A stretch of DNA of 64,000 nucleotides from Deltaproteobacteria bacterium (GTDB lineage: Bacteria > Myxococcota > JADLHZ01): the NCBI GenBank assembly GCA_020848545.1, contig JADLHZ010000013.1, positions 1 through 64,000 of the forward strand, read 5' to 3'. The notes under the pieces are model-generated. The model was not told the DNA's origin and made no database searches. It saw only the letters and a list, made by a program, of their open reading frames with translations. A program made the translations under genes and the position numbers. Within the stretch, counting starts at the first letter, position 1. The number at the start of each line of letters is the position of its first letter. This document shows positions 56,488-61,793 of this stretch, piece by piece.

Positions 56488-57705
56488 TCAGCGCGCCGGC
56501 AAGAACTGCCCGTAGCCTGCGCCGCGTCCAAGATCTTCCGCGAACGCGCCGTCGGCGAACGCCTTGCGGCCATTGACGATGACAGCTTTCACCGCGCCGT
56601 CGGATCGATTCACCATGCGCACGAGCCCAACAAGACCCTCCATCGGCGCCTCGTGATAACGATCGAGACGATCGTCGAGCTTCGTGCGCGTCGCCTCGTC
56701 CGCGAGGTGCAGCGCCGCTTGGCCCGCCGGAAACTCTTCGAAGACCACGAGCTCCATGCCGTCGGCGTAGACCTCGAAGGGGACCGGGAGCGTCTGCCAG
56801 CGCAGGTTGGCGCCGAGGAAGTTGAACGCGCGCGTGACGAGGCCGATCACGCGGTTCAAGCCCGGGTTCGCCTTCGGATCGGCGAGGGTGATCAACGTGG
56901 TGCGCAGCGCCGGCGAGAGCAAGCCACGCAAGCACCCGAGCAAGAACAAGAGCACGTTCACCTTGGTGACGAGGTTCGGCGCCGACTGCAGGATGCGACC
57001 GCGCGCGCGCAACACGCGGTTCAAGCGCCGGTACTCGCTCCACGTCGCGTACGTCGACGGCAGCTGAGCCGAGCGGTGGCGATCGCCGTCGAGCTTGTCC
57101 CACGGGTTGGTCATGCTCGAGAGGCCGAGGAGCCCCGCGTCGAGCGCGTCAGAGAGCCAGCGCTCCATCTCGGCGAGCTCGGCGGTGCTCGGCCGCGCGC
57201 GCGCGTCGACGGCCCGCGCGAGGCCCATGACGCGCACGCGCAGATCCGAGTGGCCGAGAAACGCCGTCACGTTGGCGCCGAGCGGGTGCTGCTTCAGAAA
57301 CGCCACGTAGTCCTTGGGCGTGGACCACGTCTTCTTGGAGCGGAGGAGCGGCAGCACCTGCTCGCGCGGCACCGACTCCACGCGCGTGAAGAGGTCCGAG
57401 CAATCGTCGGCGACCGAGAGGATCGTGCTGATCGAGCAGCTGCCGACGGTGACGGTGGTGACGCCGTGGCGCAACGACTCGGTGAGCGCGGGGGCGGCGA
57501 GCAGCTCGGCGTCGTAGTGCGTGTGCATGTCGAGAAAGCCGGGCATGACCCACCGGCCGCGGGCGTCGATCGTCTCGTTGGCGACGAGCGGCGCATCGCT
57601 CAGCTCGACGACGCGGCCGCCGGAGATGCCGACGCTCTTGTTCGCGCCGGGCGCGCCGGTGCCGTCGAAGAAGAGGCCGTCGTTGATCGCGAGGTCGAGA
57701 GGCAT
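56488..57705 (-). CDS. N-acyl-D-amino-acid deacylase-like protein, internally deleted
   Basis: This is a 405-residue amidohydrolase-superfamily protein. The N-terminal metal motif PGFLDMHTHYDAE (His61, His63) and the conserved block GLSSMTNPWDKLDGDRHRS are present. Family members of this type run to about 550 or more residues. Here the sequence jumps at about 336-350 from ALHLADEATR directly to LDRYHEAPMEGLVGLVRMVN. The intervening block, which normally carries the late metal/catalytic Asp, is missing while the frame is kept. The product is probably inactive. The start is ATG 57705; it is last in the minus-strand run, 35 bases after the NADPH oxidase. Confidence 0.75.
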   Translation of the reverse strand: MPLDLAINDGLFFDGTGAPGANKSVGISGGRVVELSDAPLVANETIDARGRWVMPGFLDMHTHYDAELLAAPALTESLRHGVTTVTVGSCSISTILSVADDCSDLFTRVESVPREQVLPLLRSKKTWSTPKDYVAFLKQHPLGANVTAFLGHSDLRVRVMGLARAVDARARPSTAELAEMERWLSDALDAGLLGLSSMTNPWDKLDGDRHRSAQLPSTYATWSEYRRLNRVLRARGRILQSAPNLVTKVNVLLFLLGCLRGLLSPALRTTLITLADPKANPGLNRVIGLVTRAFNFLGANLRWQTLPVPFEVYADGMELVVFEEFPAGQAALHLADEATRTKLDDRLDRYHEAPMEGLVGLVRMVNRSDGAVKAVIVNGRKAFADGAFAEDLGRGAGYGQFLPAR

Positions 57706-57740: not shown

Positions 57741-59207
57741 CTAGAACGCTTCCTGCCGAAACCGCAGCCCGTGGTGCCGGCACAGCGCCTTCAGCTCGCG
57801 CCCGAGGCCCGCCGGACCGCAGAAGAACACCGTCGCCGGCGGCTTGCCTTTGTCTTCCTCGGCGATGCGCTGAAAGATCGCGGGCCAATCCGGTCGCCCG
57901 GTCTTCGTCTTGCTCTCGAGGCCGGTGATGAGATCGACCTTCGTCGCCTCGTGCAGCATGTCCATCGCGATGAACAACGTGGCCGACTTCAGATCGTGGC
58001 GGCTCTCGGCGCCGGTCAGATAGACGTTGAGCTCGAAGAGGCCGTCGTCCTCGCGCTCGATCGCCGACAACAGCTGCAAGAACCACTCGAACGATCGCTG
58101 CTCGCGGCTCAGCCAGAAGAAGCGCACGCGCTCGAGGCCGAGCGAATGATCGCCGCGCCGCTTGCGCGCCAAAATGCTCCGCAGCACCGACGCAAAGGGC
58201 GTGACGCCGATGCCGGCGCCGATGAGCACCGCGCGCTCGCTGCCGAAGATCTCTTCCGCCGGCGCACCGTACGGCCCGTCGATGTACACGCTGACATCGT
58301 GCGGGCGCCGCTTGATCAAGCGATACAACGCGCCGGTCCAGCTGCCGACGGCGCGGATGTGCACCGTCAGCGCGTCGTCCTCCGGCGCCGAGCTGATCGT
58401 GAACGGGTGCCACTCGAAGGCCGAGACCTGGGGGCACTTCAAGAACAAGTAGCTTCCGGCGGCATAGTGAAAGCCCGCGGGCTTCTCCACCTTCAGCGCG
58501 AGCACGTCAGACGGCAACAGCTCGCCGGCGCGAACGCTCACCGCGCGGCTCGTCGTACGAAAGCGCCACGTACGTTCGATGAGGAAGCCCACGAGGGGCA
58601 AAGACAGCCACATCCAAAAGCGCGGGCCGTGCCAGATCGCGAGCGCCGCCCATGCGACGTAGAGAAAGTGCGTGAGGTAGAAGAGACGGAAGTGGCCGCC
58701 CTTGCGCACGAACGCGAGCGCCGTGCCCCACATCGCCGCGAAGACGATGAGCAGCGCGAGGCCCGTCTTGCCCGCCGGCGTCTCGAGGATCGCCGCGTTG
58801 TTGCCGAAGTGCGCGAGCGTGTGGACGAGGCCCGCGAAGAACATGACGTGACCGCACAGGCGATGAAACGAAACCGCCTCGTCGAAGGGCAGCGCGCGCA
58901 GCAGCCGGCGATGCCGCAAGTGCGTCAAGAAGTGGCGCATCATCGGCACGAAGATCAGCGCGCCGTTCAAGTAGACGATCGCCGCGGCGCCGCGCGCGAC
59001 TTGAATCCACGCGTTCTTGTCCGAGTGCCGGAGCACCGCCTCGACGCAGACGCCCACGCACAGGGCGAGATAACCCCCCAACGCGATCACGTAGGGCATG
59101 CGGTTCTGCAACAGCTTCTGCAAGAGGCGCCGCCAAGAACGCTGAGCCTTCATTTCGCGCTCTCGCTGCTCCTCTACGCGCTGCGTCTGCCGCGGCCGCA
59201 GCCACAC
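57741..59207 (-). CDS. NOX-family NADPH oxidase (NOX5-like catalytic part)
   Basis: The open frame encodes 488 residues from a GTG at 59207. Six membrane helices carry the two heme-ligand pairs of NOX enzymes: His115/His129 (SFHRLCGHVMFFAGLVHTLAH shortened here to FHRLCGHVMFFAGLVH) and His180/His193 (LTHFLYVAWAALAIWHGP). The FAD site is HPFTISSAPE (267-276) and the NADPH site GAGIGVTPFAS (330-340). The tail has SITGL-like LITGLESKTKTGRPDW, FFCGPAGLG and a terminal Phe, all NOX5-like. It should move electrons from NADPH across the membrane to oxygen. Sequence coherent with NOX5 continues upstream of the GTG (YPGLLSSLAVSPLVWLRP) in this frame and joins the EF-hand gene by a -1 change. Confidence 0.85.
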   Translation of the reverse strand: MWLRPRQTQRVEEQREREMKAQRSWRRLLQKLLQNRMPYVIALGGYLALCVGVCVEAVLRHSDKNAWIQVARGAAAIVYLNGALIFVPMMRHFLTHLRHRRLLRALPFDEAVSFHRLCGHVMFFAGLVHTLAHFGNNAAILETPAGKTGLALLIVFAAMWGTALAFVRKGGHFRLFYLTHFLYVAWAALAIWHGPRFWMWLSLPLVGFLIERTWRFRTTSRAVSVRAGELLPSDVLALKVEKPAGFHYAAGSYLFLKCPQVSAFEWHPFTISSAPEDDALTVHIRAVGSWTGALYRLIKRRPHDVSVYIDGPYGAPAEEIFGSERAVLIGAGIGVTPFASVLRSILARKRRGDHSLGLERVRFFWLSREQRSFEWFLQLLSAIEREDDGLFELNVYLTGAESRHDLKSATLFIAMDMLHEATKVDLITGLESKTKTGRPDWPAIFQRIAEEDKGKPPATVFFCGPAGLGRELKALCRHHGLRFRQEAF

Positions 59208-59689
59208 GAGCGGGCTGACGGCGAGCGACGAGAGCAGGCCGGGATATGCGCGAACGCTGCGCGAAACTCCGTGTAGCTGACGTCTCCGCTCGCGTCGGTG
59301 TCACTGCGCGCGAAGAAACGCTCGACGAGATCGTCGATCTGCGCCGCCGTGAACTGCATGCGGTTCTCGCGCAGGTTCGCGCGCATCATCTCCGCGAGCT
59401 CCGAGCGATCGATGCCGCCGGAGTCGTCGACGTCGTGCAGCTCGAAGGTGAAGCGCAGCCTGTCGTCCTCGGACGCGCCGAGCAGACGTTGCAGCGCCGC
59501 GATGAACTCCTTGCGATCGATGCGGCCGCGCCCGTCCTCATCGAAGCGAGCGAACAGGCGCGCGGCGATGAACGCGTCCTTGACGCCGAGCAGCGCCACG
59601 AACTCGTCCTTTCTCATGAGGCCGTCGCTGCCCGCCGCTTTGGCGAACTCCGCTTCCCACTCCGCGATGACCCCCGCCTCGTTGCTCAT
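59174..59689 (-). CDS. EF-hand regulatory module upstream of NADPH oxidase
   Basis: This is a 171-residue frame starting at ATG 59689. Three canonical EF-hand loops are present: DEDGRGRIDRKE (50-61), DVDDSGGIDRSE (86-97) and DTDASGDVSYTE (130-141). A degenerate one is near residue 20 (GSDGLMRKDE). Four EF-hands with a weak first loop is the NOX5 layout. After about residue 147 this frame turns into low-complexity Arg/Ser/Cys sequence, whereas the -1 frame continues sensibly into the oxidase. It is thus either a separate calcium sensor subunit or the N terminus of one frameshifted NOX5-like gene. The ATG overlaps the upstream stop (ATGA). Confidence 0.82.
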   Translation of the reverse strand: MSNEAGVIAEWEAEFAKAAGSDGLMRKDEFVALLGVKDAFIAARLFARFDEDGRGRIDRKEFIAALQRLLGASEDDRLRFTFELHDVDDSGGIDRSELAEMMRANLRENRMQFTAAQIDDLVERFFARSDTDASGDVSYTEFRAAFAHIPACSRRSPSARSCGCGRGRRSA

Positions 59690-60429
59690 TGACTGTACTG
59701 CACGCCCGCGACGACCGGGTTGTGGTCGGAGAGGCCTTCGCCATCGAGCACCTCGGCGTCGACGGGAGCGGCGCGCCATACGAACGCGTGATCGATCGTG
59801 CTCGACTTTTCGTGGCCAGGAGCGCGAGGCCGAGTCGGCAACGCGGGCTGACGCAGAGGAACGATGGTGAATTCCGGGCCGAGCAGCGCAGAGGCGTCCG
59901 CGACCGACGCGTTGAAGTCACCCGCGATGACGACCTGCCCCGGGTGTGTCTTCGCGTGGGTCACGATTTCGTCAATCTGCTTCTGCGCGCGCGGGCCGAA
60001 GCTCACGTGCGTGTTGACGACGACGAAGCCCGACGGCAGCGCGACCGACAAGAAGCCCTTGCCGGGGTCGCTCGCGAACGCGGCGGCGGCGAGCCGCTCG
60101 GATCCCCGTGCCGCGATGGTCACGAGGTGCTCGGTCGACTCGACGAGCGGTGACTCGGCGCCGCTCTTCAGCTTCGGCACGCGCGGATACCTGAGCTCGT
60201 AGAAGAACGCGCCGGGCAGCGCCATCCGCAGCATCGCCAGCTGATCGCCGCTGACCTCTTGCAGGCACACCGCCTCGCAGCGCGACGCGAGCTCCTTGGC
60301 GACGCGCGTGGCGATCGCGGTCGTCCGTGCCGCCTCGAGCGGGAACGCCTGCGCCTGCGCCTCGCCCCAGTTCTCGGCGTGGATCCGGTGCAGCACGTTC
60401 CACGTCGCGATCTCGATCTGCGCGATCAC
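59686..60429 (-). CDS. Endonuclease/exonuclease/phosphatase-family protein
   Basis: This is a 247-residue EEP-fold protein. Its motifs are IATWNVLHRI (Asn), CLQEVSG (metal Glu), VVNTHVSFG (His), VIAGDFNAS (Asp/Asn) and the terminal LSDHNPVVAGV (Asp-His). The catalytic set for Mg-dependent phosphodiester hydrolysis is complete. The substrate may be DNA, RNA or a phosphoinositide-like lipid. It starts with GTG overlapping the permease stop and ends with TGA overlapping the EF-hand ATG, so its translation is coupled at both ends. No signal peptide. Confidence 0.85.
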   Translation of the reverse strand: MIAQIEIATWNVLHRIHAENWGEAQAQAFPLEAARTTAIATRVAKELASRCEAVCLQEVSGDQLAMLRMALPGAFFYELRYPRVPKLKSGAESPLVESTEHLVTIAARGSERLAAAAFASDPGKGFLSVALPSGFVVVNTHVSFGPRAQKQIDEIVTHAKTHPGQVVIAGDFNASVADASALLGPEFTIVPLRQPALPTRPRAPGHEKSSTIDHAFVWRAAPVDAEVLDGEGLSDHNPVVAGVQYSQ

Positions 60430-61793
60430 TTCTGGGCTTCCGCTTGCCTCCGCGCGATCATTTCATCGATCGGCAGAAACGGGATGATCGCCATCCCAGG
60501 CACGCTGGCAAAGAACGAAAGGACATAGAAGCTCGTGTAGCCCATCTGCTCGACGAGGTCGCCGGCGAAGCCCGAGATGACGATGCTGCCAAAGCCCATG
60601 ATCGCCGACCCGATCGCGTAGTGACCGGCCTTGTGCTCGGGCTTGCAGGTGTAGAGGAGAAACACGAGGTACGCCGCGTCCCCGAGACCCTTGGCGATGT
60701 TCTCGTACGCATGCGCAACGGAGATCGTGACGAGCCCGGAAAGATCCGTCGCCATCGGCCTCGCCCACGCGAGCCAGACATAGACCCAGATGTTGATGTT
60801 CATCAGGATCGTCAGCGGCCAGAGCGCGCGCTTGAAGCCGACCCGCTTTATCCAGATCGACCCAATCACCGTCCCCGCGATCGTCGCCGCCATGCCGATG
60901 ACGCCCGAGAGCCACGACATCTGCGGCTTGGTGACGCCGAGCTCGCGGATGAGGAAGGTCGAGTTGAGCGCGAAGAGCAGCTCGTCGCCGAGCTTGTACG
61001 CGATCATGAACGCGAGGATGAGCGCGATGCGCGGCTGCTCCAAGTACGTGGCGAAGGAACGCAGAAATTCCTTCAACCCGGTGGCCACTCGCTTCGACTG
61101 CGTTTGCGGCAAGAAGAGCAAGTGGCCGACGAAGATCACGCCGAGGATCGCGGCGCCGGCCAGGAAGTTCCAAGTCCACACCGCGAACGCGATCATCGCC
61201 GAGCGGACGACGATGACGGCGATGCGGAAGCCGAGCACGCGCAAGCTCGAGTACACCGCCTGATCGAGCGGATCCGGGATGCCCTCCAGGTAGTACGCGT
61301 CGATCGCGATGTCGTGCGTCGCGCTGAGCAACGCCATCACGCTGATGATCGCGATCATGATGATCACGATCGTCTGGTGGCTGAGCCCGGTCGTCGGATC
61401 GATCGCCTGCGCGAGGTCGGCCCACGACAGCTTCTCGATCGGCTGCGACGCGGCGCCCTGCCCCTTCGGCCCGAAGCTCGACACGAACGCGAGGGTCAGC
61501 GTGAGCAGCGTGAGCAGCCCTTCGATCCACAGCATCCACTTGCGCTTGGTCGCCCAAAGGTCGACGAGCGGCGCCCACAGGAACTTGAACAGCCACGGAA
61601 ACCCGAGCCAGTTCGCGCGCCCGATGAACGCTTCCTTCATCCCGATGTCGGTGAAGTAAATGCCGGAGAGCCAGCGCACGATCTGCGCGGGGAAGCCCTC
61701 GGCGAAGTAGGTCGACAGCACCCACGCGACGATGCCGGCGCGCCGAGGGGCCTTCGCATCAGGGACGGGAGATGTCGGGAGTGAGGTGCTCAA
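60426..61793 (-). CDS. AmpG-like MFS permease
   Basis: This is a 455-residue integral membrane protein with about 12 membrane segments. STYFAEGFPAQIVRWLSGIY and FPWLFKFLWAPLVDLWATKRK match the AmpG/muropeptide-permease branch of the major facilitator superfamily, including the helix 2-3 signature WAPLVD. Uptake of cell-wall fragments is a family-based guess; other AmpG-like proteins carry other solutes. The start is TTG 61793 without a ribosome-binding site, nine bases after the acyl-CoA dehydrogenase stop, suggesting coupled translation. Confidence 0.8.
   Translation of the reverse strand: MSTSLPTSPVPDAKAPRRAGIVAWVLSTYFAEGFPAQIVRWLSGIYFTDIGMKEAFIGRANWLGFPWLFKFLWAPLVDLWATKRKWMLWIEGLLTLLTLTLAFVSSFGPKGQGAASQPIEKLSWADLAQAIDPTTGLSHQTIVIIMIAIISVMALLSATHDIAIDAYYLEGIPDPLDQAVYSSLRVLGFRIAVIVVRSAMIAFAVWTWNFLAGAAILGVIFVGHLLFLPQTQSKRVATGLKEFLRSFATYLEQPRIALILAFMIAYKLGDELLFALNSTFLIRELGVTKPQMSWLSGVIGMAATIAGTVIGSIWIKRVGFKRALWPLTILMNINIWVYVWLAWARPMATDLSGLVTISVAHAYENIAKGLGDAAYLVFLLYTCKPEHKAGHYAIGSAIMGFGSIVISGFAGDLVEQMGYTSFYVLSFFASVPGMAIIPFLPIDEMIARRQAEAQK

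Follow-up and report, generated by a model that had tools for sequence, protein, structure and literature searches.

A disrupted NOX5-type NADPH oxidase gene in a Myxococcota genome, very probably a former single-chain gene broken at the end of its EF-hand domain

Does an EF-hand domain that is encoded directly before a NADPH oxidase, though in another reading frame, represent one half of a genuine two-gene enzyme, or the remnant of a single chain? The question is raised by the minus strand of a 64,000-nucleotide stretch of a Myxococcota contig (JADLHZ010000013.1; hereafter the window), where an EF-hand ORF (59174..59689) overlaps an oxidase open frame (57741..59300). The original prediction had described this pair as a NOX5-like enzyme with a complete catalytic core, once continuous and split at the linker. 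ORF, Pfam and motif analyses confirmed the coordinates and content of both parts, and Pfam domains, structure matches and motifs bore out the assignment to the NOX5 type.

The EF-hand ORF starts at ATG 59689 and encodes 171 amino acids, recognized by Pfam EF-hand models and by homology. In alignments, residues 1-148 are homologous to the NOX5 EF domain, while residues 149-171 form an out-of-frame tail. Three of the four motifs expected in the N-terminal domain of NOX5 have canonical loops, all on the minus strand: loop 2 (59507..59542, DEDGRGRIDRKE), loop 3 (59399..59434, DVDDSGGIDRSE) and loop 4 (59267..59302, DTDASGDVSYTE). Loop 1 is degenerate (AGSDGLMRKDEF), as it is in cyanobacterial homologues.

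The oxidase frame (519 aa) is free of stop codons and comprises a linker, a six-helix haem domain and an FAD-/NADPH-binding dehydrogenase domain, with Ferric_reduct, FAD_binding_8 and NAD_binding_6 all scoring above the Pfam cut-off. Its catalytic motifs are complete. The haem domain is of the ferric-reductase type, with two histidine pairs (H146/H160 and H211/H224, spacings 14 and 13) that are invariant across the alignment; HPFTISS, GAGIGVTPF and GRPDW are mostly invariant, and the C-terminal dehydrogenase domain retains the conserved final aromatic residue. Residues D436 and D456 are the equivalents of D611 and D631 of csNOX5 from Cylindrospermum stagnale, dehydrogenase aspartates required for calcium activation according to the csNOX5 study (PMC7317449). 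Identity of the oxidase to cyanobacterial NOX5 reaches at most 51%. Human NOX5 (PDB 6sz5, 8u7y, 8u85-8u87) was the best solved-structure match of both ORFs (2.4e-22 for the EF-hand ORF, 8e-99 for the oxidase). It was also the top fold match by E-value of an AlphaFold2 model of the oxidase (mean pLDDT 79), with the csNOX5 domains among the top matches. No second NOX5 copy was found elsewhere in the genome. Since the EF domain and the oxidase stand in different frames in this assembly, and not on one polypeptide, the locus is a disrupted NOX5 gene rather than a proven functional NOX5.

The enzyme belongs to an established type: EF-hand NOX5 proteins of bacteria have been described before. The domain order and motifs are those of csNOX5 (PDB 5o0x, 5o0t; PMC7317449), which likewise has four EF-hands, the first of them degenerate. 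Crystal structures of the csNOX5 dehydrogenase and transmembrane domains were found among the solved-structure matches and closely resemble the oxidase; the csNOX5 haem histidines are kept, and a Cylindrospermum sp. homologue (L033) is 51% identical over the oxidase. However, csNOX5 is one chain, whereas here the frame is broken between the EF domain and the oxidase. The Acaryochloris NOX5-like protein AM1_3152 (PMC3591440, PMC5676040) is also a bacterial EF-hand NOX but again a single chain; a homologue from an Acaryochloris MAG (L037) is about 44% identical. Human NOX5 differs in being eukaryotic and single-chain, with longer dehydrogenase insertions. SpNOX-type enzymes (Streptococcus pneumoniae) share the NOX catalytic core, but they lack EF-hands, are constitutive and are distant (16-18% identity in fold alignment). 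The original prediction's suggestion that a calcium-gated bacterial NOX5 would be notable in itself was thus overstated: structures of csNOX5 exist and its calcium dependence has been measured (PMC7317449), papers of 2013 (PMC3591440) and 2017 (PMC5676040) had reported the gene of Acaryochloris marina, and later papers treat csNOX5 as a standard (PMC8228183, PMC11031084).

The change of coding register (59244..59251, minus strand) was located by two approaches, which agree on positions 59246-59248, the place originally proposed. As for homology, in pairwise alignments with 15 homologues the EF-frame similarity ends at residue 143-152, and the oxidase-frame similarity begins at residue 14-20 in all but two of them (L039 and L041, whose divergent linker is unaligned there). 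Against cyanobacterial proteins, EF residue 148 (codon 59248-59246) is followed directly by oxidase Tyr19 (codon 59246-59244), one register off; the two homology blocks abut with zero residues missing. As for codon usage, a model trained on long ORFs was applied to pairs of neighbouring genes in 303 kb of this genome (230 genes). It placed a switch between the EF and oxidase frames at 59248 with a log-likelihood gain of 17.5, by far the best of the 230 genes. A second candidate (gain 9.2) was rejected, as it represented ordinary nuoC/nuoD neighbours. The EF/oxidase pair is the only convincing frame break in the region surveyed.

Downstream of the switch, the oxidase frame encodes a linker (59174..59246, minus strand), over which the EF-hand ORF extends with its tail in the other register and which is supported by both alignment and codon usage. 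When compared with NOX linkers, this extension, YPGLLSSLAVSPLVWLRP, matched the linker of the homologues, FPDLIEAMTVSPISWLRP. The 23-residue EF tail, SRRSPSARSCGCGRGRRSA, behaves in the opposite manner: its codon usage is poor and it has no counterpart among the aligned homologues. All 15 comparable homologues, coming from cyanobacteria, Neomarinimicrobiota, Burkholderiales, Spirochaetes and two Myxococcota (L041 and L045), are single continuous ORFs across the junction, in line with a single-chain ancestry of the protein. None of them belongs to the same class, a search of which returned this genome alone. One further match, in a 'Proteobacteria' MAG (SZAS-78; L043, 5001-6140), was excluded, as it consisted of exon-like pieces in different frames; it is probably a eukaryotic contamination of the bin.

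We consider it very likely that the locus is a former single-chain NOX5 gene with a single break in its reading frame, at about 59246-59251, where the EF domain ends, caused either by a recent mutation or by a sequence error. On this reading the split is young, because ahead of every plausible oxidase start the linker has kept its match to that of the homologues; this is telling, since in a two-gene arrangement that linker would go untranslated in the oxidase frame. The ancestral chain would have consisted of a cytosolic EF-hand calcium sensor, a membrane haem domain and an FAD/NADPH dehydrogenase domain, in this order. Electron transfer in csNOX5 and human NOX5 is turned on by binding of the EF domain to the dehydrogenase domain, once calcium has made the EF domain's C-lobe fold (PMC7317449). 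Judging from the domain order and conserved residues, the intact form may have worked likewise: the calcium-bound EF domain would dock on the dehydrogenase domain and start an electron flow from NADPH through FAD and two haems to O2, with superoxide formed outside the membrane.

The same features may be read in another way, as a genuine two-gene enzyme in which a free EF-hand sensor acts in trans on a separate oxidase, whose translation restarts by coupling to that of the sensor. The restart would occur at ATG 59153, giving the shortest plausible free-standing oxidase ORF (57741..59153, minus strand). This internal codon lies 21 nt past the EF stop and is preceded by AGGAG 14 nt upstream, with an anti-Shine-Dalgarno energy in the lowest 5% of the background; the alternative start GTG 59207 lacks a ribosome-binding site, leaving ATG 59153 as the only plausible one. 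The oxidase frame is also intact across all catalytic motifs, and action in trans is conceivable given that the EF domain of NOX5 works by binding the dehydrogenase domain (PMC7317449). Nevertheless, the AGGAG-ATG spacing is long, the linker conservation and codon signature reach upstream of ATG 59153 into sequence untranslated in the oxidase frame, the EF tail is without counterpart and poor in codon usage, and not one of the 15 homologues compared is split. We therefore regard a two-gene enzyme as improbable. If true, it would represent a natural split NOX5, calcium-gated as two polypeptides, of which no other example was found.

Assuming a broken single-chain gene, the locus as sequenced would yield the EF-hand protein on its own; translation of an oxidase lacking EF-hands could at best resume at ATG 59153, and that product is expected to be nearly inactive. 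This start aligns with approximately residue 204 of csNOX5, and the resulting oxidase resembles the EF-truncated csNOX5 construct 209-693, for which PMC7317449 gives near-background activities of 0.0018 and 0.0025 with or without calcium; the wild type reached 0.0159 when calcium was present. Because of the resemblance to this low-activity construct, a functional calcium-gated oxidase would not be expected from the sequence as given, unless the EF protein can act on the oxidase as a separate chain.

Programmed -1 ribosomal frameshifting, by which both frames would be fused into a protein of normal length, was likewise considered. The -1 offset is indeed the register that gives a full-length colinear protein, and an inverted repeat (59199-59213 / 59286-59300; 15-nt arms, 80% complementary) spans the region. 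However, neither a slippery heptamer nor a run of at least four identical bases occurs at 59300-59170. The repeat pairs imperfectly around a 72-nt loop, with one arm on either side of the junction, whereas a structure that stimulates frameshifting would be expected on the downstream side alone. The combination of slippery heptamer and downstream structure that characterizes such sites is accordingly missing at this junction, and all the homologues manage without frameshifting. This explanation is hence highly improbable, as the original prediction had already argued from the missing heptamer.

With the broken single-chain gene as the preferred explanation, it can be asked if the break exists in the organism or in the assembly only. 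In the latter case, an assembly or consensus error would conceal an intact single-chain NOX5. The homologues are all intact, and the oxidase and EF domain show no other decay; moreover, the sequence comes from a draft genome of 163 contigs with no 16S gene detected, possibly a metagenome bin, and a short direct repeat, TGCGCGAA, occurs at the break in two copies (59247-59254 and 59258-59265) 11 nt apart. On the other hand, there is no homopolymer at the site, and with one convincing frame break in 230 genes (303 kb), frame-breaking indels are rare in this assembly.

Against a mere sequence error speaks also a second, much larger lesion in the neighbouring gene. The amidohydrolase encoded downstream of the oxidase (56488..57705, minus strand, 405 aa) lacks about 175 conserved internal residues. 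The gap is located between residues 340 and 343 (about position 56680), and the remaining ends are in frame. The missing residues are present in all four aligned relatives, one of which is 75% identical, and the missing piece was not found elsewhere in the genome. The gap, which the original prediction does not mention, probably represents another lesion of this cluster. Damage to two neighbouring genes is consistent with a decaying cluster on which selection has been relaxed. Within the explanation by a broken gene, we thus prefer a genuine mutation within a cluster undergoing decay, which is reasonably probable. An assembly or consensus error remains the lesser share of that explanation and, taken by itself, is possible but rather unlikely. 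Either way, the broken frame calls for caution: this assembly is no basis for claiming a novel split enzyme or a case of frameshifting.

Upstream of the EF-hand ORF, the cluster continues with a gene for an endonuclease/exonuclease/phosphatase family protein (59686..60429, minus strand), which overlaps the EF start by 4 nt (ATGA), and with an MFS transporter gene (60426..61793, minus strand), which overlaps the start of the nuclease gene, again by 4 nt. As these start/stop overlaps join the three genes, the transporter, the nuclease and the EF-hand ORF (59689-61793, minus strand) probably form one translationally coupled operon. Farther upstream, an acyl-CoA dehydrogenase and a gyrase A C-terminal domain are encoded. 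The neighbours suggest no dedicated calcium or redox pathway.

Finally, we examined the distribution and relationships of the enzyme. A search of 195 genomes of the phylum yielded one further NOX5, with L041 being additional, and none was found in the plasmids and viral contigs searched. In the phylogenetic tree, the window sequence falls inside a group of cyanobacterial and Neomarinimicrobiota enzymes (99/99), apart from its two phylum-mates; which sequence is its sister is uncertain (85/85, long branches). This greater closeness to enzymes from cyanobacteria and Neomarinimicrobiota than to the two from its own phylum gives a hint of horizontal transfer, though a weak one since the branches of the tree are long. 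Synteny comparison with two genomes (G187 and G111) revealed no oxidase neighbours in common. Single-chain EF-hand NOX5 proteins were observed in L035, L036, L038, L039, L040, L041 and L045, whose sources are Neomarinimicrobiota, Burkholderiales, Spirochaetes, an unclassified bacterium and Myxococcota MAGs. Judged by sequence comparison, bacterial NOX5 is spread more widely than the usually quoted cyanobacterial examples, and the present locus adds one genome to the short list of bacteria carrying it.
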